Below the pieces are notes generated by a model. It was not told the DNA's origin. It was given only the letters and a program-made list of their open reading frames with translations, and made no database searches. From Anaerococcus porci (GTDB taxonomy: Bacteria; Bacillota; Clostridia; Tissierellales; Peptoniphilaceae), in assembly GCF_009696575.1 (NCBI RefSeq), contig NZ_VULQ01000011.1, forward strand, positions 1 through 62,461: 62,461 bases of DNA. Direction: 5' to 3'. The position numbers were made by a program, and so were the translations under genes. Below, in pieces: positions 5,135 to 62,087 of this stretch. The number at the start of each line of letters is the position of its first letter. Positions within the stretch are counted from its first letter, which is position 1.

Positions 5135-6127
5135 ATGAAAAAGGTTGTTACTATGGGTGAGATGCTTCTTAGACTGACACCAAGACATTATAAAAGATTG
5201 GTTCAAGCTGATTCTTTTCGTGCAATCTTTGGTGGAGGGGAAGCCAATGTTGCTATTTCTCTTGCAAATCTAGGGCATGAATCCTTGTTTGTTTCAAAGA
5301 TTCCAGATAATGAAATAGGTCTTGCATGTAAGGATGTTTTAGATGAAAATGGTGTAAATACTGATTTCCTTAAATTTGGAGGAGAAAGGCTAGGTCTTTA
5401 TTATTCTGAAGAAGGCTCAGGAGTAAGATCATCATATGTAATCTATGATAGGCTAAATTCATCAATAGCTGAAGCAAGTATCGATGATTTTGATTTTGAT
5501 GAAATATTTAAAAATGCATCTATCTTTCACATATCAGGTATAACTCCAGCACTTTCAAAATCTTGTAAGGAGCTAACAAAAATAGCTTTAAAAAAGGCAA
5601 AAGAGGCGGGAGTATTTGTATCCTTTGATCTTAACTATAGGTCCACACTTTGGCCACTAGATGAGGCTGTTAAGTTTTATGAGGAAGTTAGTCCATATAT
5701 AGACTTATGCATAGGAGTAATTCCTGAAATCCATCCATCGTTTAAGGGCGTGTTCAATGAAAAGTCTCTTGAAAAAATGTTTGAAGAAACCTACCAAAGA
5801 ACAGGTATAAAGTACATAACTTCAACAATTAGAAAGAGCTTTTCAGCAACTGATAATAGGCTTTCTGCAGGCATTTATAATGGTCGAGATGCCCACTTCA
5901 CAGATGAAATTGATGTAAGAGTTGAAGAAAGAATAGGTGGGGGCGATTCCTATACGGCAGGTCTTTTATGTTCGCTTTTAGATGGTAAAGATAAAAATGA
6001 TGCAGTAGAATTTGCTATAAGAGCATCTGCCTTGAAGCATACCATAAAAGGTGATTATAATTTATCTGAAAGAGAAGAAGTTGAAGACTTTGTAAGAGGA
6101 AAACACTCTGGAAGAATAGAGTGGTAG
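5135..6127 (+). CDS. PfkB-family sugar kinase (2-keto-3-deoxygluconate kinase-like)
   Basis: 330-aa ribokinase-fold kinase. The N-terminal GGGEANVAISLANLG and the C-terminal PfkB signature IGGGDSYTAGLLCSLL include the catalytic Asp. It is clearly paralogous to the kdgK product at 19488-20513: both share GGEANVA, YYSE, VIYDRLNS/RSNS and ALKHTIKGDYN. It has an AAGGAGGGG ribosome site and its own promoter. It sits alone, outside the glucuronate operon, so its substrate may be the same keto-deoxy acid or a different one. Confidence 0.85.
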   Translation: MKKVVTMGEMLLRLTPRHYKRLVQADSFRAIFGGGEANVAISLANLGHESLFVSKIPDNEIGLACKDVLDENGVNTDFLKFGGERLGLYYSEEGSGVRSSYVIYDRLNSSIAEASIDDFDFDEIFKNASIFHISGITPALSKSCKELTKIALKKAKEAGVFVSFDLNYRSTLWPLDEAVKFYEEVSPYIDLCIGVIPEIHPSFKGVFNEKSLEKMFEETYQRTGIKYITSTIRKSFSATDNRLSAGIYNGRDAHFTDEIDVRVEERIGGGDSYTAGLLCSLLDGKDKNDAVEFAIRASALKHTIKGDYNLSEREEVEDFVRGKHSGRIEW

Positions 6128-6210
6128 ACTTTTTTTGATTGGTAATTTAAAAATAAGAGTAAAATAATGGAAATATTCATAAAATTCCTTAAAGCTAAAT
6201 TTGAAAATAC

Positions 6211-6244
6211 TTGGCAAAAGCTTTTAATTGTAAGCTTTTGCCAA
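6211..6244 (+). terminator. 13-bp perfect hairpin after the PfkB kinase gene, probable terminator
   Basis: TTGGCAAAAGCTT (6211-6223) pairs perfectly with AAGCTTTTGCCAA (6232-6244) around an 8-nt loop. The tail is A/T-rich but not a clean T-run on either strand, so termination is likely but not certain. Confidence 0.55.
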
Positions 6245-6345
6245 AAACTCAACAAAAAATATTTTATTTTATGAAAGGATGTGATATATTACTTGCAAGA
6301 AGAAAGTTAATACATAGACGATTATAAATTGATATTTAAAATTAA

Positions 6346-9306: not shown

Positions 9307-10159
9307 GTATGATGATCATGTTCATTTATCTCCTATAAAAGGTAGAAAGATAAATGGCCAAGACCTAATAACAAGTGAAGAAATGATAAAGTCAATGGAT
9401 AAGAGGGACATAGATGTATCAGTAATAATGACTACTTCATTGAAAGGCGAAGGCTCAAATGAAGAAGCCTTAGAAATTATCAAGAAATACCCTAATCGAT
9501 TCATGTATATGGCTACCTTTAATCTTTGTTTAAATGAAACTGATTTAGATAAAAGGATTAAAGAAGAAAAAGAAAAAGGTGCCATAGGTATAGGAGAACT
9601 AGTAGAAAATCAAGAAATAGAATCTTTCGATATTCAAAAGCTTTTTAAAGTGGCTGAGGCAAATAAGATGCCGATTTTATTTCATATGGCTCATCAAATG
9701 GGAAATTCTTATGGAATTTATGATAAAGCTCTTTTACCAGAGCTTGAGAAATCACTTAAAAAATATAAAGATTTAATCATAATAGGACATTCTCAACCAT
9801 TCTGGTACGAAATGTATAATAAAAATAGTGATGTTAGTCCTGAGGAAAGAAACTCATATCCAAAAGATATAGTAAATGAAGAAGGAAGACTATTTGATCT
9901 TTTAAGAGAAAATTCAAATCTTTATTGTGATCTGTCAGCAAATTCTGCTGGAAATGCAATAATGAGAAATAAAAGCATGGGAATAGATTTTTTAAAAGAA
10001 TTCCAAGATAGATTAATATTTGGTACGGATATATATAATAAAGATCAATATTTTCCTTTGGCAGATTATCTCAAGAAATTGCTTGATGATGGAGATATAA
10101 ATAAAGACATCTATGAAAAAATATTTTCTAAGAATTTTGAAAAAGTTTTTCTGCATTAA
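9299..10159 (+). CDS. Amidohydrolase-family metal-dependent hydrolase (PF04909 type)
   Basis: 286-aa TIM-barrel hydrolase. The DDHVHL motif (H7, H9) provides the first two metal ligands. FHMAHQMG and IGHSQPFWYEMY supply later histidines, and FGTDIYNKDQY the terminal Asp. ATG 9299 is chosen over an earlier in-frame GTG (9260) because it gives the normal short N-terminus before the HxH motif and a typical 8-bp overlap with the symporter gene. This family includes lactonases and decarboxylases, so it may act after the adjacent alpha/beta hydrolase. The substrate is unknown. Confidence 0.8.
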   Translation: MIKYDDHVHLSPIKGRKINGQDLITSEEMIKSMDKRDIDVSVIMTTSLKGEGSNEEALEIIKKYPNRFMYMATFNLCLNETDLDKRIKEEKEKGAIGIGELVENQEIESFDIQKLFKVAEANKMPILFHMAHQMGNSYGIYDKALLPELEKSLKKYKDLIIIGHSQPFWYEMYNKNSDVSPEERNSYPKDIVNEEGRLFDLLRENSNLYCDLSANSAGNAIMRNKSMGIDFLKEFQDRLIFGTDIYNKDQYFPLADYLKKLLDDGDINKDIYEKIFSKNFEKVFLH

Positions 10160-51448: not shown

Positions 51449-54007
51449 ATGGATGGTTTTATGTTTGAAAATTTATATGCTCATATTGATCAAAAAAATA
51501 TAGAAAGAAAACAAAGCTTATTTGATCATTTAATTAATACGGCCAATGAATCAAGAAAATTAGCTCAAGATTTAAATCTTGAGAATTCAGCTTATATAAT
51601 TGGATTTCTTCATGATATAGGAAAAGCTAGAGATGAATTTCAAGAAAAAATCACAAAAAACTCTAAAAAAAGTGTAGATCATTCTACTTTAGGCGGTATT
51701 CTAATAAAATATTTAGTTAAAGATATACAGAATAATAACAACTGCTTAAAATTTTCTTCTTATATAAATGAAGAAGAAAATTTAAATATATTTTTAGATT
51801 TTTGTAATGTTTTGATTTATTCGATTTTATCTCATCATGGTCAATATAATATGATAAGAAAAAATAAAGATAAAATATATGTTTTTACATCTTTAGATAG
51901 GATTACTAATATAGAAAAAGAATTATCTTTTGATATAAGAGAGTTTTATGTAGAATTAAAAAAATTTCTATTGGATAAGAATATAGATATTATCAAAATA
52001 TTTATTAACTCCTTTAAAGAGTATGAAAATATAATAAGTAGGCTTGATATATCATCTCAGAATGAGGCTGATGAAAACTATGAGTTTAAAGAAAAACAAT
52101 TTTATAATTCTATGCTTATTAGATTACTTGTATCAATATTAAAATCTGCAGATGTTAAAGATACTATAAATTCATACGAAACAGTTATTGAAGATAAAGA
52201 TTATAAATTGATAGAAAATGTAAAAGATGAATTTGTAAATAAAATTAATCTAAAATACGAGGAGTTTGGAAATCCAAAATCAAAAATAAATAAGGTGAGA
52301 TATGATATATCAACTCAAGTTTTCGAAAATTCCAAAAAATTTGGAAGTGGAATCTATAGACTTGATTTACCGACTGGTGCAGGAAAAACATTACTTTCCT
52401 TAGCTTATGGAGTAAACCAGCTTAAGTATAAAGGTAAAGATAGATTTTTCTATATAACTTCATATTTATCTGTACTAGAACAAAACGCTAAAGTTATTAA
52501 AGATGTTTTAAAAAATGAGGAATACATACTAGAGCATCATTCGAATGTAGTAGAGGAAAAAGAAGAGAGTAACTCTTTTAATGATGACTTTGGTGATAGT
52601 CTTGAAAAAATCAAACATGATTATATTCTTGATGATTGGACTAATCTTATTGTATTAACAACAATGGTTCAATTTTTTAATACATTATTTAAAGGCTCTT
52701 CATCAAATATAAGAAGATTTAAATCATTAGCTAATTCAACTATTATTTTAGATGAGCTGCAATCTTTGCCTGTAGATGTTTTGTATCCTACAAATCTTGC
52801 TCTTAACTTTTTAAAAGAAGTAATGAAGGCTAATATAGTTTTATCTACAGCTACACAACCTACTTATGATTACGAAAATTTAGTTTATAGGCTAAAATAT
52901 GGTGATGATAATTTAGAAAATAAAGATGTTTTAAATCTTAGTAAAGAACAAAAAGTTGTCTTTAAAAGAACAAAAGTTGAAATATATAAAAACGGAGAAG
53001 AAACTTCCATAGATGACTTGAGAAATCTCATTCTAGATAATAAAGATAAGTCAAATCTTATTATATTAAATACAAAAAAAGCTGTCAAAAACACATATGA
53101 GCTTTTGAAAAATGATATAGAAAGTGAAAATCTATATTATTTAACAACTAATCTACACTCTGTAGATAGATTAAGGATAATAAAAGAAATTAAAGATAGG
53201 TTAGAAAATAATGAAAAGATTGTTGTTATAAGCACTCAGCTTATAGAAGCTGGAGTAGATGTTGATTTTGAAGTTGTCATAAGATCTTATACAGGAATAG
53301 ACTCTATAATTCAATCAATGGGAAGGTGTAATAGAGAAGCTAAACTTGAGTATGGAATAGTATATTTAATTAACCTATCAAGAGAGGCTGAAAACTTGGA
53401 CTATATAAAATCTCTTAAAGAAAGAAAAGAGGCTGGACGATATGCCTTAAGTAAATTAGGTAATAATCAAGACATAGAAGAAATAATACCTATTTATTTT
53501 AAGAAACTTTATACAAATTTAGATTATAATCGACTATCTTATAAGATAAAAGAAAGTAATTTTGTAGATTTATTATCATTTCTTGATAACTCTTTAATTA
53601 ATATAGAAAGTTCTATCGAAAAAATAAGCACAAGTAATGAGAGTTACTTGAATAATTTTGAAATATTAGCAACAGTAATGACTCAAAGCTTTAAAAGCGC
53701 ATATAATAACTTCAATTTGATTGAAAATAAGATGGACACAGCCATAGTGGAGTGTGAAGATACCAAAGATTATATAAATGATATTAGAGACTTAGAGATA
53801 AGCTTTAGAGAAAGTTATGATTTTTCCTTACTTAAGAAAATGAAAAATATAGTAAGGAAATTAAATCCATATAGTGTTAGTATTGGAAAAAACAATTTGG
53901 AATCTTGTGAAGAGATTTTAGATGGAAAAATTTATATACTAAATAATGAGTTTTATGACGATAAAATAGGAGTTAATTTTGAAAGTAATGATTTGTTTAT
54001 AATTTAA
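51449..54007 (+). CDS. cas3: CRISPR-associated nuclease/helicase Cas3 (type I-C)
   Basis: 852-aa effector that unwinds and degrades target DNA after Cascade binding. The N-terminal HD nuclease has IGFLHDIGKA (H55-D56, K59), FDHL (H27) and LSHHGQYN. The SF2 helicase has Walker A LPTGAGKTLLS (309-314), Walker B ILDELQ (435-438), motif III STATQPT and motif VI QSMGRCNREAK. It starts at ATG 51449; ATG 51461 is a possible alternative, and neither has a strong ribosome site. It is separated from cas5 by 161 bp holding the crRNA-like gene and a separate promoter, so cas3 can be controlled apart from Cascade. Confidence 0.95.
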   Translation: MDGFMFENLYAHIDQKNIERKQSLFDHLINTANESRKLAQDLNLENSAYIIGFLHDIGKARDEFQEKITKNSKKSVDHSTLGGILIKYLVKDIQNNNNCLKFSSYINEEENLNIFLDFCNVLIYSILSHHGQYNMIRKNKDKIYVFTSLDRITNIEKELSFDIREFYVELKKFLLDKNIDIIKIFINSFKEYENIISRLDISSQNEADENYEFKEKQFYNSMLIRLLVSILKSADVKDTINSYETVIEDKDYKLIENVKDEFVNKINLKYEEFGNPKSKINKVRYDISTQVFENSKKFGSGIYRLDLPTGAGKTLLSLAYGVNQLKYKGKDRFFYITSYLSVLEQNAKVIKDVLKNEEYILEHHSNVVEEKEESNSFNDDFGDSLEKIKHDYILDDWTNLIVLTTMVQFFNTLFKGSSSNIRRFKSLANSTIILDELQSLPVDVLYPTNLALNFLKEVMKANIVLSTATQPTYDYENLVYRLKYGDDNLENKDVLNLSKEQKVVFKRTKVEIYKNGEETSIDDLRNLILDNKDKSNLIILNTKKAVKNTYELLKNDIESENLYYLTTNLHSVDRLRIIKEIKDRLENNEKIVVISTQLIEAGVDVDFEVVIRSYTGIDSIIQSMGRCNREAKLEYGIVYLINLSREAENLDYIKSLKERKEAGRYALSKLGNNQDIEEIIPIYFKKLYTNLDYNRLSYKIKESNFVDLLSFLDNSLINIESSIEKISTSNESYLNNFEILATVMTQSFKSAYNNFNLIENKMDTAIVECEDTKDYINDIRDLEISFRESYDFSLLKKMKNIVRKLNPYSVSIGKNNLESCEEILDGKIYILNNEFYDDKIGVNFESNDLFII

Positions 54008-54080
54008 AAGGAGCTACAGCTCCTTACACAAATAAAAACATATTTCAATCCACAGAGTTTACTCTGATATATAAATTATA
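54003..54080 (-). ncRNA. crRNA-like regulatory RNA (creR-like) between cas3 and cas5
   Basis: Read on the minus strand, the order is -10 box TATAAT (plus 54075-54080), a start near 54068, and a repeat-like element at 54066-54042. That element is the hairpin CAGAG-TAAA-CTCTG followed by TGGATTGAAAT, which equals the last 11 bases of the array repeat and the 11-nt handle Cas5d leaves. The pseudo-spacer ATGTTTTTATTTGTGTAA follows (54041-54024), then the terminator at 54025-54008. The stem bases differ from the array repeat but pair at the same place. The RNA would be about 65 nt, crRNA-sized. Its spacer matches the cas5 promoter with a TTC PAM (see 54131-54151). Confidence 0.85.
54008..54025 (-). 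terminator. Shared terminator of cas3 (+) and the crRNA-like RNA (-)
   Basis: A 7-bp perfect stem AAGGAGC/GCTCCTT with 4-nt loop directly follows the cas3 stop. On the minus strand it is followed by TTAAATT. It overlaps the last two bases of the matching pseudo-spacer. Confidence 0.7.
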
Positions 54081-54108
54081 CCCAAAATTATTATTAATAA
54101 AAAATAAG

Positions 54109-54137
54109 TTGACAAATAATGAATCATATATTACACT
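54109..54137 (+). promoter_or_regulatory. Promoter of the cas5-cas8c-cas7-cas4-cas1-cas2 operon
   Basis: A perfect TTGACA (54109-54114), a 17-bp spacer and the weaker -10 TACACT (54132-54137), 32 bp before cas5. The -10 lies entirely inside the protospacer matched by the crRNA-like RNA. Confidence 0.75.
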
Positions 54138-54151
54138 AATAATAACATGAA
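54131..54151 (-). promoter_or_regulatory. Protospacer and PAM for the crRNA-like RNA in the cas promoter
   Basis: The minus strand reads TTC (54151-54149), the type I-C PAM, then 18 bases (54148-54131) agreeing with the pseudo-spacer at positions 1-5, 7-11 and 13-18. The only differences are at 6 and 12, both T in the RNA-coding sequence and A here. Base pairing ends at position 19. Cascade bound here would cover the -10 box of the cas5 promoter. Confidence 0.85.
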
Positions 54152-54168
54152 AATAGAAAGGAGGAAAA

Positions 54169-54885
54169 ATGGAAAAATCACAATATTTTTACGCGAAAGT
54201 TTATGGGGATAGGGCCTTGTGGACTACTCCAGAATCTAAGAGCGGGGGAGAAAAGCTTACTTATCAAATCCCAACAAGAGAATCTTTAAGAGGGATTATA
54301 GATTCAAACTATTTTAAACCCACAATCAGAAATGAAATAGATGAAGTTAGGGTAATAAAAAAAATTGAAACTTATACTGTAGGTACAAGGTTGTTGTTAA
54401 ATAGCTATAAGTCAGATTTAAGTGCATATACCTATTTGACTGATGTTTGCTACTATGTTAAGTTTCATTTCGAATGGAATGAGAATAGGCCTGACCTTAA
54501 AAATGATAGGAATATGAGAAAACATGAAGAAATAACAAAAAGATCTTTAAAAAGAGGTGGAAGAAGGCCGATATTTTTAGGAGTTAGCGAATGCCTTGGA
54601 TATATTGAAATCCTAGATAAAAACCAATATGAAAAAGATATAGGATATTATGATAATAAGAGTTTATCGTTTGGAATAATGTTTAATGGTTTTATATATC
54701 CTAAAGAATCTGGAGATAAATTAAAATCAACCTTTACAAATATAGATATGAGAAATGGAAGAATTAAATTTATCCGTCCAGAGGAATGTGAAATTGTAAA
54801 TGAATTAGACGATTATAGTTTTAAAGTAGCTGACTTAACTAAGAGTGTCGACGAGGAATTAAAAGATTATGGAGATAGCCTATGA
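54169..54885 (+). CDS. cas5: Cas5 (Cas5d/Dvulg), crRNA-processing endoribonuclease of type I-C
   Basis: 238-aa RAMP protein that cuts the repeat hairpin at its 3' base (type I-C lacks Cas6) and caps the 5' handle in Cascade. Family segments visible are ALWTTPESKSGGEKLTYQIPTRESLRGIIDSNYFKP, KRGGRRPIFLGVSECLGYI and YPKESGDKL. A strong AAAGGAGG ribosome site is present. It overlaps cas8c by 4 bp. It would process the repeat-like hairpin of the upstream regulatory RNA as well (inference). Confidence 0.95.
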   Translation: MEKSQYFYAKVYGDRALWTTPESKSGGEKLTYQIPTRESLRGIIDSNYFKPTIRNEIDEVRVIKKIETYTVGTRLLLNSYKSDLSAYTYLTDVCYYVKFHFEWNENRPDLKNDRNMRKHEEITKRSLKRGGRRPIFLGVSECLGYIEILDKNQYEKDIGYYDNKSLSFGIMFNGFIYPKESGDKLKSTFTNIDMRNGRIKFIRPEECEIVNELDDYSFKVADLTKSVDEELKDYGDSL

Positions 54886-56750
54886 GTTTACTTCAAGTAC
54901 TTTATAATTCATATGAATATGCTGAAAAAAATAAGATGGTAGATAAGCTTGATGGAAGTGATGTTATTCTACCTATGTATCATGAAAAGAAGAAGTCTGA
55001 TGGAAAAAATATAATAAGTGTAAAAATAGATAAAAAATCTAATATAATAGATGCGAATTTCCTTGAAAAAAATGAAATTATAGTTTTTCCTATAACGGAG
55101 GATTCTGTAGCAAGATCAAGTGGGGTAGCACCACATCCTCTAGTAGATAATGGTGCATATTTGTTTGATAAGGATTCAAAAAAAGAAGAAGCATATAAAA
55201 AACAATTAGAGGAATGGATAGACTACTCAGAAGATGACTTCTTAAAAATTATATATAATTTTATATCAAAAGATGATTCCTTTAAATTAATTGTAGATAA
55301 ATTTTATAACCATTATGTTATAGGAAAAGGGGTGAAAATAGAATACAAGAAAGAAGGGGAAAAGAAAGCTAAAACTTTTGATTTTTCTAAAGTGTTTTTT
55401 ACATTCGTTATTGAAGACTATGATGGAATAAAAGACATATCAGTTAGTGAAAATAAAAAGTTACATGAAGCATATATTAAATATGTAAAATACTCAAATG
55501 AAAATGATGAAGAAAAAGAGAAAATCATTTGTAATATAAGTGGGAAAGAGGATTATCTATGTACAAAGCATAGACCTTTAATGGGAACAGCTAGGTTGAT
55601 TTCTCAAATAACAGCAAGTGATGAAAATTATTTAGGAAGATTTTCTAATCCAGATCAAACTATAGAGATAGGTACTGACTCAAGCCAGAAAATTCATTTG
55701 ATGGCAAAATATTTATTATCATCTAAGAAAACCTCGGTGTGGTTGGGTTCAAACTCATATTTAGTTAATTGGTTTTCAGATGATATTAAAAATGATTCTA
55801 AGTTAAATCTAAATTCTAGTGTATTTAAAATTATAAAAACTATTACTCCGATAGGAACTGATACAAGTAAAGATATAGGAGAATCATTTTTAAAAGGAAA
55901 AATATTATTTTCTGATTCATCTAAATACTATGTGGCAATATTTGACAAGGTAAGTAATGGAAGGTCGGCAGCCAAATATTTCAAAGAAATGGATACATCC
56001 ATATTAAAAGAAAATTTAGGAAAATGGCAAAATAAATATTATTGGTTTAGCTACAATAAAGAATTAGATGAAGAGGTGGTATTTACACCAAGTCCTTACA
56101 ATATATTAGTTTCAGCCTATGGAATAGAAAGAGATAGTACTTTAAAAATAGCAAGCGATAAATTCTTGCAAAGTCAATTACAAATAATAATCTCTTCTAT
56201 TGTTGAAGGTAAAGATATAAGCGATAATATTGAAAAAGCATTAGAGAATAACCTAAAACAAAGGCAAAGATATGATAAAACATGGAATAGAATGAAAAAT
56301 TGTGCTATGGCAATTTTAAGATATAAGGAGGACATAGATACAAATATGCTAGATAGAGAAAATAAAGATAGGTCATACTTATATGGAAGACTACTTGCCA
56401 TATATGAAAGAATAGAAAAATCTTGTTTTGATAAAGATGATGACATAAGAGTTTCAAATGCAGAAAAACTATGGACATCATATATTAATAACCCTGTATT
56501 AATTAGTACAAGATTAAGAAACATGATTATGCCATACCATAATAAACTAATGATAAATGAGAATAAAAGAGGAATTTACTTTAAACTTAAAAATGAAATG
56601 AGAGAGGTTATTAACTTAATAGATGAAAATTATAATTATAAAAAACAATCTAGTAATATTCCTTTAGGTCCAGGATTTATGTTTGGATATGAAGCACAAA
56701 TGAAAGATATATTTACTAAAAAATCAAATAGGGAGGGAAACGATGATTAA
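54882..56750 (+). CDS. cas8c: Cas8c (Csd1), Cascade large subunit
   Basis: 622-aa type I-C large subunit that recognises the PAM and helps recruit Cas3. The N-terminus has MSLLQVLYNSYEYAEKNKMVDKLDG, then PLVDNGAYLFDKDSKKEEAYKKQLEEW, then CLCTKH-like CNISGKEDYLCTKHRPLMG. The C-terminal helical part carries the Cas11c-like region common in this family. It overlaps cas5 (ATGA) and cas7 (8 bp), as expected for a fixed-stoichiometry complex. Confidence 0.92.
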   Translation: MSLLQVLYNSYEYAEKNKMVDKLDGSDVILPMYHEKKKSDGKNIISVKIDKKSNIIDANFLEKNEIIVFPITEDSVARSSGVAPHPLVDNGAYLFDKDSKKEEAYKKQLEEWIDYSEDDFLKIIYNFISKDDSFKLIVDKFYNHYVIGKGVKIEYKKEGEKKAKTFDFSKVFFTFVIEDYDGIKDISVSENKKLHEAYIKYVKYSNENDEEKEKIICNISGKEDYLCTKHRPLMGTARLISQITASDENYLGRFSNPDQTIEIGTDSSQKIHLMAKYLLSSKKTSVWLGSNSYLVNWFSDDIKNDSKLNLNSSVFKIIKTITPIGTDTSKDIGESFLKGKILFSDSSKYYVAIFDKVSNGRSAAKYFKEMDTSILKENLGKWQNKYYWFSYNKELDEEVVFTPSPYNILVSAYGIERDSTLKIASDKFLQSQLQIIISSIVEGKDISDNIEKALENNLKQRQRYDKTWNRMKNCAMAILRYKEDIDTNMLDRENKDRSYLYGRLLAIYERIEKSCFDKDDDIRVSNAEKLWTSYINNPVLISTRLRNMIMPYHNKLMINENKRGIYFKLKNEMREVINLIDENYNYKKQSSNIPLGPGFMFGYEAQMKDIFTKKSNREGNDD

Positions 56751-57594
56751 TAACAAAGTAGATTTTATTTTTACAATTAAAGTAGAGGGAGCAAATCCAA
56801 ATGGAGATCCATTAGCAGGTAATATGCCTAGAATAGATTCTAGAGGATATGGAGAAATAAGTGATGTATGTTTAAAAAGAAAAATAAGAAATAGAATGCA
56901 AGATATGGGGCACGAAATATTTGTAAAATCTGAAAACAGGAGCGATGATGGATTTAATTCTCTAGAAGCAAGATTTTCTTCTAAATTTGATAATAAGAGT
57001 ACAAATCAAGAAATTGAAGAGAAATCATGTGAATATTGGTTAGACGTAAGGTCTTTTGGGCAAGTTGTTACTTATTTAAAAAAATCAGTTGGGATAAGAG
57101 GCCCAGTTTCTATATCAATAGCTAAGTCAGTAGAACCAGCTATAATAACAACTATGCAAATAACAAAAAGTGTAAATGGGCAAGAAATGAAAGACGGAAA
57201 AAAATCTTCTGATACTATTGGATCAAAACACTATATAGACTATGCTGTTTATGTAGTAAATGGTAGCGTAAATGCGTATTTTGCAGAAAAAACTGGTTTT
57301 GATGAAAAAGACTTAGAAGTGCTAAAAGAAGCAATTAGGACATTATTTATAAATGATGTATCGTCTGCAAGACCTGATGGCTCCATGGAAGTAAAAGATA
57401 TATATTGGATAAATCATTCTTCAAAAATAGGCGATGTATCTAGTGGAAAGTTAAAGGATATGCTTATCTATGACCTAGATCAAGAAGAAAATAAAGACAA
57501 AAAATATGAAGATTATAACTTTAGATTAGATGAAGAGAAATTAAAGGAATATGAAGATTTAGGCATAAGTGTAGAACATTTTGTAGGTTTATAA
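56743..57594 (+). CDS. cas7: Cas7 (Csd2), Cascade backbone subunit
   Basis: 283-aa backbone protein that polymerises along the crRNA spacer and flips every sixth base. The N-terminal DFIFTIKVEGANPNGDPLAGNMPRID is the Cas7/Csd2-Csh2 hallmark. GSKHYIDYAVYVVNGSVNAYFAEKTGF and INDVSSARPDGSMEVKDIYWINHSSK follow. A GGAGGGAAACG ribosome site lies inside the end of cas8c. Confidence 0.95.
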   Translation: MINNKVDFIFTIKVEGANPNGDPLAGNMPRIDSRGYGEISDVCLKRKIRNRMQDMGHEIFVKSENRSDDGFNSLEARFSSKFDNKSTNQEIEEKSCEYWLDVRSFGQVVTYLKKSVGIRGPVSISIAKSVEPAIITTMQITKSVNGQEMKDGKKSSDTIGSKHYIDYAVYVVNGSVNAYFAEKTGFDEKDLEVLKEAIRTLFINDVSSARPDGSMEVKDIYWINHSSKIGDVSSGKLKDMLIYDLDQEENKDKKYEDYNFRLDEEKLKEYEDLGISVEHFVGL

Positions 57595-57595
57595 G

Positions 57596-58249
57596 ATGTA
57601 TAATCCTGATGACTATTTGCTCTTGAGTGGAATACAACATTTTCTATTTTGTAAAAGACAATGGGCTTTAATCCATATTGAAAATGTGTGGAAAGAAAAT
57701 ACTTACACTATAGAAGGACAAATACTTCACGAAAAAGCAGATAAGCCATTTTTAAAGGAAAAGAGAAAGAATAAAATCATTTCTAGAGCTATGCCTATTA
57801 GTTCAAAAACATTGGGATTAAGCGGTATTCTTGATGTAATAGAATTTAATAAATCAGATGATGGAATAAAATTAAAAGGTAGAGATGGCTTACGGAAGCC
57901 AACAATTATTGAGTACAAAAGAGGAAAGAAGAAAAAATATTCTTACGATGAATGTCAACTAATGGCAGAAGCTATATGTATAGAGGAGATTTTTAAAACG
58001 AAACTAGACTACTCATATATCTATTATGGAGAAACTGACAATAGAATAAAAGTTGAATTTGATAAAGATTTGAGATCTCTTACTATTGATACAGCAGAAA
58101 AAATGCACCAATACTATGAAAATAAAATTGTGCCAAAAGCTGAATTATATAGGAAGTGTAGACTATGTTCATTAAATGAAGAATGCAATCCAAGACTCAC
58201 AAAAAAGCCTAAAAATGTAAAAAATTACTTATATGGTGAACTACTATGA
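57596..58249 (+). CDS. cas4: Cas4, Fe-S exonuclease of spacer acquisition
   Basis: 217-aa RecB-type nuclease that trims prespacers and selects the PAM. GIQHFLFCKRQWALIH has the first cluster Cys (C19). GILDVIEF and TIIEYKRGKKKKYSYDECQLMAEA give the nuclease Asp, Glu and Lys. CRLCSLNEEC supplies the three C-terminal cluster cysteines. It overlaps cas1 by 4 bp. Confidence 0.95.
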   Translation: MYNPDDYLLLSGIQHFLFCKRQWALIHIENVWKENTYTIEGQILHEKADKPFLKEKRKNKIISRAMPISSKTLGLSGILDVIEFNKSDDGIKLKGRDGLRKPTIIEYKRGKKKKYSYDECQLMAEAICIEEIFKTKLDYSYIYYGETDNRIKVEFDKDLRSLTIDTAEKMHQYYENKIVPKAELYRKCRLCSLNEECNPRLTKKPKNVKNYLYGELL

Positions 58250-59274
58250 AAAAATTACTAAACACCTTATACGTAACAAATTCAGATGCTTACTTAAAAA
58301 GAGAGGGGTTAAACATAGTAATATCTGTAGATAATAAACGTATTGGAAGATATCCTATCCATATATTAAGACAGATAATCTGCTTTAATTATATGGGAAT
58401 AAGCCCGGCTTTGATGAAACTTTGTATGGAGAACAATGTAAGTGTGACATTCTATGACCCATTTGGTAGATTTTGTGGAAGAGTCGTAGGAAAATCATAC
58501 GGTAATATCTATACACGTAAAAAACAATATAAACTTAGTGAGAGTATAGACTCAATAGACTTTGTAAAAAATATTATTTATGCTAAAGCCTATAATTGTA
58601 GAAAGCTACTAATAAGAGGGAAACTGGACCATAAAGATAAAATAGATTTGCCTAGAGTAGAGAAAGTAATAAATAGAATTAAAGAATTAATGTTACAAAT
58701 ACCTTTGGCAAAAACTAAAGATGAAATAAGAGGTATAGAAGGAAAAATAGCTTCGGAATATTTTTCAGTATTTGATGAGTTGATAATAAAAAACAGAGAG
58801 GAATTTTATTTCAATGGAAGGAACAAAAGACCTCCTTTGGATATGGTGAATGCTATGCTGTCATTTCTATATAGCATATTAACAAATGAAATAGCATCTG
58901 CACTGGAAGGTGTTGGGATAGACTCTTATGCAGGGTTTTTTCATACGGATAGACCAGGTAGAGTGAGTATGGCTTTAGATATAATTGAAGAAATGAGAGC
59001 TTTTATGGTGGACAAATTTGTTTTATCTCTAATAAACTTAAATAGAATTGATGAAACAAAATTTGAAATCAAAGAAAATGGAGCAACTTTATTAAATGAA
59101 AAGGGAAGAAACCTAATATTATCTTATTGGAACGAGAGAAGTCATGAAGAAATATATCATCCTTTCTTAGAAGAAAAAGTTCAAATAGGTTTACTAGCAC
59201 ATGTTCAAGCTCAATTATTAAATAGCTACATTAGAGGAGATATAGAATCCTACCCTCCTTATATGAGGAAATGA
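58246..59274 (+). CDS. cas1: Cas1 integrase
   Basis: 342-aa integrase of type I-C. KKLLNTLYVTNSDAYLKREGLNIV is the N-terminal domain. The catalytic helix part has IEGKIASEYFSVFDEL (Glu), a later HTDRPGRVSMALDIIEEMRAFMVD (His, Asp/Glu) and the C-terminal LLAHVQAQLLNSYIRGDIESYPPYMRK. Length is normal. Confidence 0.96.
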   Translation: MKKLLNTLYVTNSDAYLKREGLNIVISVDNKRIGRYPIHILRQIICFNYMGISPALMKLCMENNVSVTFYDPFGRFCGRVVGKSYGNIYTRKKQYKLSESIDSIDFVKNIIYAKAYNCRKLLIRGKLDHKDKIDLPRVEKVINRIKELMLQIPLAKTKDEIRGIEGKIASEYFSVFDELIIKNREEFYFNGRNKRPPLDMVNAMLSFLYSILTNEIASALEGVGIDSYAGFFHTDRPGRVSMALDIIEEMRAFMVDKFVLSLINLNRIDETKFEIKENGATLLNEKGRNLILSYWNERSHEEIYHPFLEEKVQIGLLAHVQAQLLNSYIRGDIESYPPYMRK

Positions 59275-59275
59275 A

Positions 59276-59569
59276 ATGCAAATATTAATAACATATGACG
59301 TAAAAACATCAAGTAAGGGTGGAAGCAGAAGATTAAGACAAGTTGCAAAAATCTGTACAAACTATGGACAAAGAGATCAAAATTCAGTATTTGAACTTAA
59401 TATATATCCTGCAGACTTGGTGAAGATAAAAAACAAACTAGAAAAAGTGATAGATCTAGAAGAAGATAGTATAAGAATATATAATTTGGGGAAAAATTGG
59501 GAAAGAAGAGTAGAATCTATAGGAAAAGATGAAGCCTATAATCCTGAGAAGGATTTATTAATAATGTGA
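59276..59569 (+). CDS. cas2: Cas2
   Basis: 97-aa ferredoxin-like dimer that bridges the Cas1 pairs. MQILITYDVKTSSKGGSRRLRQVAKICTNYGQRDQNSVFELNI has the conserved N-terminal Asp (D8). It starts one base after the cas1 stop. The leader and CRISPR array follow within 122 bp. Confidence 0.95.
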   Translation: MQILITYDVKTSSKGGSRRLRQVAKICTNYGQRDQNSVFELNIYPADLVKIKNKLEKVIDLEEDSIRIYNLGKNWERRVESIGKDEAYNPEKDLLIM

Positions 59570-59691: not shown

Positions 59692-62087
59692 GTCACTCCC
59701 TTCATGGGAGTGTGGATTGAAATGATGTATTTGATACATGTTTTAGACATTATGATAGTCACTCCCTTCATGGGAGTGTGGATTGAAATAAGGCTAACCA
59801 ATACAGACACAGATACAGTTAGGGTGTCACTCCCTTCATGGGAGTGTGGATTGAAATTTACAGTCTTTGGTGGAAATGAAGTTAGGGAGATAGTCACTCC
59901 CTTCATGGGAGTGTGGATTGAAATCACAAGCCACACATAAAAGCTTACTATTACAAATAGTCACTCCCTTCATGGGAGTGTGGATTGAAATCGACTTTTG
60001 GGCGGATTGGGATAGACAATACGAAGTCACTCCCTTCATGGGAGTGTGGATTGAAATATAAGCACCAGTATGAATTGACCCATCAACTGCACGTCACTCC
60101 CTTCATGGGAGTGTGGATTGAAATTCAAAAGATTTTGACCGATTTTACCAGTTTTACCAGTCACTCCCTTCATGGGAGTGTGGATTGAAATTGATTGGGT
60201 TACTGGGGAAGTACTACCAAGCATAAGGTCACTCCCTTCATGGGAGTGTGGATTGAAATTCTGTCATTGTTTTATCTCCTAAATATATTATTTACGTCAC
60301 TCCCTTCATGGGAGTGTGGATTGAAATTAAGGGTGGTAAGCCTATTGAAGATATGGTTAGTAGAGGTCACTCCCTTCATGGGAGTGTGGATTGAAATATC
60401 AAGTTTTATAGTTTTTTCCCTTTTCATTCACGCGTCACTCCCTTCATGGGAGTGTGGATTGAAATTTTTATCCTTTCTTCCAAAGAGCTTAAACTATCAC
60501 TTAGTCACTCCCTTCATGGGAGTGTGGATTGAAATTATCATAATTTTTCCCTGTTATGTTGTTATATGGGGTCACTCCCTTCATGGGAGTGTGGATTGAA
60601 ATATTGTTATTGTCAAGTATCTTAAAATTATCTCTCTGTCACTCCCTTCATGGGAGTGTGGATTGAAATTTTGCTCAGCATCGCAAATTGGGTTATGAGA
60701 TTATTTTGTCACTCCCTTCATGGGAGTGTGGATTGAAATGTCAAGGGCTTTAGTACCTTCTAAAACTGTATCGGTGTCACTCCCTTCATGGGAGTGTGGA
60801 TTGAAATCTAAGATTGATATGTGGTCTTATGGTATTGATGATTTGTCACTCCCTTCATGGGAGTGTGGATTGAAATACATTTATGAATGATGGGTTTTGT
60901 GATTTAGAATGTCACTCCCTTCATGGGAGTGTGGATTGAAATAATCCACAGAGCCTTGCACTCTGCCGCCTAAATTGGTCACTCCCTTCATGGGAGTGTG
61001 GATTGAAATATCTTTGGTAAATAGTTCTTTCTTGCGTTTTTCTGTCACTCCCTTCATGGGAGTGTGGATTGAAATTATTAGGAAAAAGATTAGGTATGGG
61101 GTGCATTATGTCACTCCCTTCATGGGAGTGTGGATTGAAATTGCTAAATTAGCATAACTTAAATTCGCTTTTTCACGTCACTCCCTTCATGGGAGTGTGG
61201 ATTGAAATTTTCTCTGAAGATATTGAATCTCTATAATATCATTGTCACTCCCTTCATGGGAGTGTGGATTGAAATATCACAATCTTTTAACGCTCCAGTA
61301 TTATGTAAAGTCACTCCCTTCATGGGAGTGTGGATTGAAATAAAACCTAAACTATATTTATAAGCAAAATTTAATATGTCACTCCCTTCATGGGAGTGTG
61401 GATTGAAATAAAATTAGCTATTACATTACGATTTTCTTTCTTAATTAAGTCACTCCCTTCATGGGAGTGTGGATTGAAATTTTTTTTTGTCTCCTTTTAT
61501 CCAATTTATCATATAGTCACTCCCTTCATGGGAGTGTGGATTGAAATTCCTAACTCGAAATACTCTATTAATGTTATTAGTTTATGTCACTCCCTTCATG
61601 GGAGTGTGGATTGAAATACTTGCAAAAAATTCACTTTTACCATTAATTTTATGTCACTCCCTTCATGGGAGTGTGGATTGAAATATGCTATTGAGTCTAA
61701 GGTTTGGGAGAGTAAGAATAAGGTCACTCCCTTCATGGGAGTGTGGATTGAAATTCCACCATTAATAAATCATTTACTACCTTTAACAGTCACTCCCTTC
61801 ATGGGAGTGTGGATTGAAATATGTAGGTAAAACAACAGTATCTAATTATGAAACTGTCACTCCCTTCATGGGAGTGTGGATTGAAATCAAAAAGAAAAGT
61901 CCCGGTTGTTGTTATTAAATTGTCACTCCCTTCATGGGAGTGTGGATTGAAATAAATTTGGAGCATGTAAAATTGGATAATGGTAACTTGTCACTCCCTT
62001 CATGGGAGTGTGGATTGAAATACTATTACAGAAAATGTTGATTTTAGCCCTTTTAGTCACTCCCTTCATGGGAGTGTGGATTGAAAT
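59692..62087 (+). CRISPR. Type I-C CRISPR array, 36 repeats and 35 spacers
   Basis: The 32-bp repeat begins GTCACTCCC and ends GTGGATTGAAAT. It has a 7-bp stem (CACTCCC/GGGAGTG) around TTCAT and an 11-nt 3' handle. Counting by hand gives 36 copies, the first at 59692-59723 and the last at 62056-62087, all apparently identical, including the last. Spacers are 34-39 bp and no two look alike. Repeat type, cas set and leader position agree with type I-C. Apparent reading frames across the array are artefacts of the repeat. Confidence 0.98.

Follow-up and report, generated by a model that had tools for sequence, protein, structure and literature searches.

A crRNA-like element between cas3 and cas5

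We analyzed a 62,461-nucleotide stretch of DNA from Anaerococcus porci (contig NZ_VULQ01000011.1; "the window" below means this whole stretch), which carries a type I-C locus of cas3, cas5, cas8c, cas7, cas4, cas1, and cas2, followed by an array of 36 exact repeats. The gap between cas3 and cas5 is 161 bases, and on its minus strand lies an element that resembles a gene for a CRISPR RNA (crRNA), with a short guide matching the cas5 promoter beside a protospacer-adjacent motif (PAM).

54075..54080, minus strand: -10 box TATAAT of the crRNA-like gene, 8 nt upstream of the hairpin
54053..54066, minus strand: pseudo-repeat hairpin CAGAG-TAAA-CTCTG, whose pairing covaries among relatives
54042..54052, minus strand: 5' handle TGGATTGAAAT, 11 nt, identical to the 3' end of the array repeat
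54024..54041, minus strand: guide (pseudo-spacer) ATGTTTTTATTTGTGTAA, 18 nt
54008..54025, minus strand: terminator-like hairpin AAGGAGC-TGTA-GCTCCTT with a short U tract, adjoining the cas3 stop codon
54131..54148, minus strand: target of the guide, 16/18 match with mismatches at guide positions 6 and 12, overlapping the cas5 -10
54149..54151, minus strand: target PAM TTC
54109..54137, plus strand: cas5 operon promoter TTGACA-17-TACACT, found by consensus matches
51449..54007, plus strand: cas3 (TIGR01587 and TIGR01596 matches)
54169..54885, plus strand: cas5 (Cas5c/d; TIGR01876), first gene downstream of the target promoter
54882..56750, plus strand: cas8c (TIGR01863)
56743..57594, plus strand: cas7 (TIGR02589)
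57596..59569, plus strand: cas4, cas1, and cas2 (cas1 by TIGR03640; cas4 and cas2 assigned from position alone)
59692..62087, plus strand: CRISPR array of 36 exact 32-nt repeats GTCACTCCCTTCATGGGAGTGTGGATTGAAAT

A preliminary description of this DNA had reported the 11-nt handle identity, 11 nt being the length of the I-C crRNA 5' handle (PMC5965380; papers are cited here and below for individual passages). The identity holds but extends to 13 nt (54054-54042), and this 13-mer is single copy in the window apart from the array. The same description had all stem bases differing from the repeat, which does not stand: the stem shares its outer C-G and A-T pairs with the array repeat, while its inner part differs. 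Since the last two guide bases pair in the second stem, about 16 guide bases are left free. Several relatives have T-rich tails after the hairpin. In 53600-54600, an Rfam search at an E cutoff of 5 gave two matches, each far under its gathering score, and a comparison of the window stretch with plasmids gave no match. Elsewhere in the genome, an AT-rich stretch of 41 bases (G000:C23:40667-40712, L002) is 85% identical to approximately 54070-54110, probably by chance.

The guide matches the cas5 promoter

The 16/18 fit of the guide over the cas5 -10 was recovered, with the target at 54148-54131, mismatches at positions 6 and 12 only, and the reported TTC PAM in place at 54151-54149; I-C PAMs include TTC and TTT (PMC10865793). 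The target is the sole other site in the window with no more than two mismatches to the guide. A search of three genomes (G000, G016, and G028) placed TTCATGTTNTTATTNGTGT solely at the window cas5 promoter and at the G016 cas5 promoter. Composition-matched random 18-mers reached 16/18 on the same intergenic strand in 16 of 100,000 draws, and in 1 with TTC. The two mismatches had been interpreted as unread positions. This fits our data, as both positions are also free across relatives and both correspond to bases that I-E Cascade flips out (PMC5965380). The observation itself, a crRNA-like element with a promoter-matching guide, is confirmed.

Guide and target change together in the family

Cas5 was detected in 28 of 130 family genomes, and we examined 25 of these, leaving out G059 and G106 (weak partial Cas5 matches) and G068 (contig end). 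Eighteen of the 25 loci have an orphan handle with a hairpin on the minus strand upstream of cas5 or, in L013 and L054, upstream of cas3. These 18 elements were picked by handle, hairpin, and place without regard to target; the L013 and L054 elements were chosen by eye from the handle list. A target lies beside the element's own cas5 (cas3 in L054) in 17 of the 18, with L013 doubtful. The guide fits at no fewer than 12 of the first 16 positions in 16 elements; the other two, L054 and L013, fit at 11/16 with positions 1-5, 7-11, and TTC intact. The PAMs are TTC in 15, TTT in 2, and TAC in 1 (L004, in which TTC flanks an overlapping opposite-strand site). The best-scoring promoter -10 is wholly inside the target in 11 loci and partly in 1; in 4, the target begins 13-24 nt past the first base of the -10, and the remaining 2 are ambiguous. 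At one decaying locus with a broken cas5 (L057; G050:C2:344000-358000), the target abuts the hairpin of the element, as if the stretch between the promoters had been deleted.

A covariance model of the element (R1) matched 17 places in 16 of 249 genomes of the order, 2 of the places being prophage elements described below, and 5 of 391 genomes of the class. R1 failed to recover the three family elements of G012, G050, and G072, and Cas5 loci were therefore also scanned directly.

When guides were reassigned among loci, the observed sum of 238 was reached by none of 200,000 permutations (mean, 176.8; maximum, 209). The element's own region was best in 17 of 18 rows (not L013) and uniquely so in 10; six of the seven own-region ties were sister pairs sharing a guide or target. 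We then scored pair states by parsimony on a FastTree tree of Cas5. At positions 1-5 and 7-11 there were 41 matched double changes versus 2 one-sided changes, both at position 8. Position 6 had 0 matched double changes versus 5 one-sided, and position 12 had 1 versus 9, plus 2 other; positions 13-16 were mixed (10 matched double, 15 one-sided, and 7 other). Long branches may conceal wholesale replacement of guide and target, which would also require matching. The preliminary description had named independent drift of guide and promoter in relatives as a result that would refute it. The opposite was found: at most positions the match is kept through change, and it is free at positions 6 and 12.

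The hairpin follows the same pattern. On 17 rows (L057 omitted), covariation was 0.675 versus 0.180 in shuffles (0/500), and 89.7% of cells were paired, while two of five measures (pairs changed on both sides and pair types) fell within the shuffle range. Stem sequence thus changes while pairing stays, in keeping with the earlier suggestion of selection on hairpin structure. The -10 box is nearly invariant, with TA...T fixed in the 17 aligned elements. A simple search found no terminator-like stem in 4 of the 18 elements; in the 14 with a stem, it lies 13-17 nt from the handle in 10 and 22-26 nt in 4.

The inner stem, being unlike that of the array repeat, could be taken to mean a decayed solitary CRISPR repeat with a chance match. 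We consider the probability of this virtually nil, as it is refuted by the covariation; the random draws, the permutation, and the tree also speak against it. A chance match as such was ruled out by the same three analyses.

Elements outside the family

Among 391 genomes of the class, 59 had a Cas5d match, as did 103 of 398 genomes of the phylum. From among up to 30 loci listed per search, we scanned 56 loci outside the family up to 6 kb upstream, several being cut by contig ends. Nine of the 56 have a handle and a fitting target; with L191 as the tenth and Veillonella L016, from a separate source, as the eleventh, there are 11 outside elements and 29 in all.

Targets lie between cas3 and cas5 in L174, L185, L194, L207, and L208, and 70-250 nt upstream of cas3 in L160, L161, L189, and L191. 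Element and target together are just upstream of cas3 in these last four and in L054. Overall, 26 of 29 targets are either between cas3 and cas5 or just upstream of cas3. That every element sits at a cas promoter was considered and dropped, as it was not so shown for L013, L195, and L016. In L189 and L195 the guide is longer and precedes a handle-less hairpin resembling a second repeat, and the hairpins of L160 and L161 are poor.

Pooled over the 29 pairs, mismatches at positions 1 to 16 number 0, 0, 0, 0, 0, 23, 0, 1, 1, 2, 0, 22, 3, 1, 3, and 7, so that positions 6 and 12 hold 45 of 63 (30 of 44 in the 18 chosen without the target). The PAM is TTC in 25, TTT in 3, and TAC in 1. The target is on the opposite strand in 4 of 29. 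These data bear on a very improbable alternative in which the element is an antisense RNA or one of two divergent promoters, its likeness to the promoter is incidental, and no Cascade is involved. The promoters are indeed divergent, and the element is antisense to any read-through from cas3. However, such a reading predicts neither the handle, TTC, free positions 6 and 12, nor targets on the opposite strand.

Altered handles served as controls. In a first scan, six of them gave 0 matches at 629 sites, compared with 4 at 177 for the true handle. In a second, fourteen altered handles gave 11 matches at 978 sites; the true handle matched at 9 of 82 sites outside the family and at 15 of 782 in the other set, array repeats included. 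Ten control matches were listed, of which two look real (L191 and L016), three are array repeats, and five resemble chance matches or a local inverted repeat. L191 and L016, which came from the control motif GATTGAAG, were moved into the 29. Their variant handles end in GATTGAAG (L016, Veillonella intestinalis, 6017-6250; L191, 3209-3263), with the targets at the cas3 start and before cas3, respectively.

Three further loci stood out. In L195 (69-550), the element is before cas3, and its TTT-PAM target precedes a stretch without an assigned gene; this element may regulate something other than cas genes. L193 and L201 have orphan repeat-like hairpins with a handle near I-C cas genes and no nearby target on the same strand, which was the strand searched.

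Relation to known guide RNAs

CreR (Liu et al. 2023) is a crRNA-like, cas-regulating RNA encoded in the cas locus that has partial complementarity to a cas promoter and mediates autorepression (PMC13131331, PMC12737573, and PMC12948488). One review passage names subtypes I-B, I-E, and V-A (PMC13131331), and a second review speaks of type I and V-A generally, with I-C unnamed in the passage. The creR-type logic invoked in the preliminary description is in this sense known from other subtypes. The window element is likewise a crRNA-like RNA gene in a cas locus with a partial match to a cas promoter. It has one repeat-like unit with a handle outside the array, where CreR has one or two, a guide of limited complementarity to a cas promoter beside a PAM, and a guide and target kept matched in evolution. 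It differs in being I-C, in having one degenerate repeat, and in having a terminator-like hairpin after the guide in place of the second repeat, so that it is not a mini-CRISPR with two repeats. Since CreA may have either one or two degenerate repeats (PMC9458426), we do not take two repeats as strictly defining. No description of an I-C CreR was found in the literature searched, which did not extend to the full Liu 2023 and Shmakov 2023 papers. Self-regulation of a I-C system has been reported in Myxococcus, with the mechanism unknown (PMC8616872).

CreA of CreTA also shares with the window element its degenerate repeat or repeats, partial promoter match, TTC PAM, and the use of Cascade as repressor (PMC9458426), but CreA targets a toxin gene and the window element targets cas genes. 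Because the guide architecture is the same, we asked how well a CreA-like antitoxin of an addiction module would explain the family. No gene was identified behind the targets of L195 and L013, as this would allow. In the window, however, it is cas5 and not a toxin gene that follows the target promoter, and the 26 targets counted above also stand against it; we judge this explanation very unlikely.

Tracr-L of type II-A (Workman 2021) is a natural guide with an 11-nt match that represses a cas promoter without cutting (PMC8616872). It is like the window element in being a short natural guide, but it is a Cas9 and tracrRNA form with unrelated machinery. Racr are phage solitary repeat units that bind Cas proteins, one of which was tested against I-C (PMC10651486).

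If our interpretation is right, RNA-guided cas autorepression extends to type I-C, in a form that is very simple in this family, consisting of a single repeat, a short guide, and a hairpin resembling a terminator. The 29 guide and target pairs would then amount to a mutational scan of I-C Cascade carried out by nature, with positions 1-5 and 7-11 nearly strict and 6 and 12 free.

Shmakov et al. 2023 reportedly found many type I crRNA-like elements, in which standalone repeats carry guides directed at cas promoters, and also phage mini-arrays. These elements would resemble ours in the standalone repeat, the cas-promoter guide, and the occurrence in phages, and I-C entries may be listed among them.

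Proposed autorepression of the cas operon

We propose that the element is very probably a CreR-like autorepressor guide gene, through which I-C Cascade would repress its own operon. All of these steps are deduced from the sequence. The RNA would start near 54068 at the hairpin and end at the 54008 hairpin. Cas5c/d would recognize hairpin and handle and cut at the hairpin base, giving an 11-nt handle with a guide of about 16-18 nt, and the terminator hairpin would stand in for the usual 3' repeat stem. A short Cascade would settle on TTC and the adjoining target at the cas5 -10 without reading positions 6 and 12, blocking transcription of cas5-cas8c-cas7-cas4-cas1-cas2. The short guide should not complete the R-loop; the pairing would thus be too short to recruit Cas3, and the chromosome would be spared. 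By analogy with CreR of other subtypes, where repression is relieved by competing crRNA or an anti-CRISPR (Acr; PMC12737573), array crRNAs competing for Cascade or a phage disabling it would lift repression, so that the circuit would sense free Cascade. The proposed steps from RNA synthesis to Cas3 avoidance would account for the anatomy; the derepression step is borrowed from CreR.

When Cas3 is absent, I-C Cascade bound at a TTC target that covers a -10 acts as a repressor, and in Escherichia coli knockdown one repeat with one spacer performed similarly to two repeats (PMC10865793). The authors of that study suggest that the Cas5-capped end possibly matters for Cas3 and not for repression, which would suit the anatomy of the element.

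The guide might instead bring Cascade to the promoter for activation, for priming of spacer acquisition, or for Cas3-dependent cutting. The covariation supports Cascade binding as such, and what follows from binding we infer. In 16 of the 18 family loci, however, the target sits on the -10 or shortly past it, a position from which bound Cascade should obstruct polymerase; repression by I-C Cascade placed on a -10 has been reported, as noted; and cutting at its own cas5 promoter would be self-destructive. We therefore regard these outcomes as unlikely.

Several observations weigh against autorepression by the element. The layout of promoter, hairpin, handle, guide, and terminator in the preliminary description stood in its parts, but the -35 is poor (TTTTTA, spacing 17 nt) and the U tract short; the consensus promoter scan left out this promoter and reported a different minus-strand site, and the terminator scan did not report the terminator-like hairpin. 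No element with the handle searched was found in 7 of the 25 family loci (G021, G038, G043, G049, G073, G074, and G120) and none in these scans in 46 of the 56 outside loci, several of which are cut by contig ends. The element is presumably dispensable, or was missed by the scans, in such loci. The 11 outside elements were found through the target requirement, and their fit is therefore biased toward our interpretation. Three targets lie away from a cas promoter: approximately 30 nt inside the cas3 match in L016, and approximately 760 and 740 nt upstream of cas3 in L195 and L013. Positions 8, 9, and 10 carry 4 mismatches among the 29. In L004, L012, and L013, a second site within 600 nt ties over 16 positions; there, the site with the better seed and PAM was retained. 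Taken together, the interpretation in the preliminary description is supported, with the corrections given above, as the likeliest meaning of these sequences.

A prophage copy and array spacer 19

Away from I-C cas loci, R1 had further matches in G016 and G028, at a crRNA-like element in prophage DNA.

L079 9540-9640 (G016:C1): prophage crRNA-like element
L080 ~9540-9680 (G028:C2): the same element; also L081 and L082

Its neighbors include genes for phage tail or siphovirus proteins and amidases, with a holin in G016. The element is present in 2 of 31 genus genomes and in two viral contigs; a search of the prophage stretch among phage records gave no match. It has a hairpin CAAGG/CCTTG preceding CGGATTGAAAT and a terminator-like hairpin of its own. 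The G016 prophage guide fits the G016 cas5 promoter at 16/18 with TTC and mismatches at 6 and 17, pairing also at position 12, which the host's own guide mismatches, and fits the window promoter at 15/18. The G028 prophage guide fits these promoters at 14/18 and 13/18 and has a mismatch in the seed; G028 itself yielded no I-C Cas5. Each prophage guide also fits its own promoter at 14-15/18 with AAT in the PAM place, and the element may regulate itself. Like Racr, it is a phage-borne single repeat and may act by sequestering Cas proteins; it differs in also carrying a guide that fits the cas5 promoter. A Peptoniphilus-type guide pattern gave 10 stretches in viral contigs, none element-like by eye.

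Spacer 19 of the window array (60943-60977, AATCCACAGAG...), one of 750 array spacers examined, matches the plus strand of the window element over its first 11 bases, after TTC. Its reverse complement resembles a foreign crRNA-like element and reads as a hairpin CAGAG-TGCAAGG-CTCTG, with the same stem as the window element, followed by TGGATT. Two patterns used to look for its source had 0 matches in viral contigs, and in the 31 genus genomes only the spacer itself was found. It may be a trace of a mobile mimic, or chance.

We see an even balance for and against the wider proposal that autorepressor guides peculiar to I-C systems form a widespread class, in most cases with a single repeat and less than spacer length, and that phages have turned it round. 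The guide of the Anaerococcus prophage, with its different hairpin, would make host Cascade silence the host Cascade genes, and spacer 19 may record such a mimic. The prophage copy suggests that the autorepression switch is a target of counter-defense. A small uncharacterized gene, whose product has a weak Arc-like C-terminal match, is oriented divergently to the prophage element.

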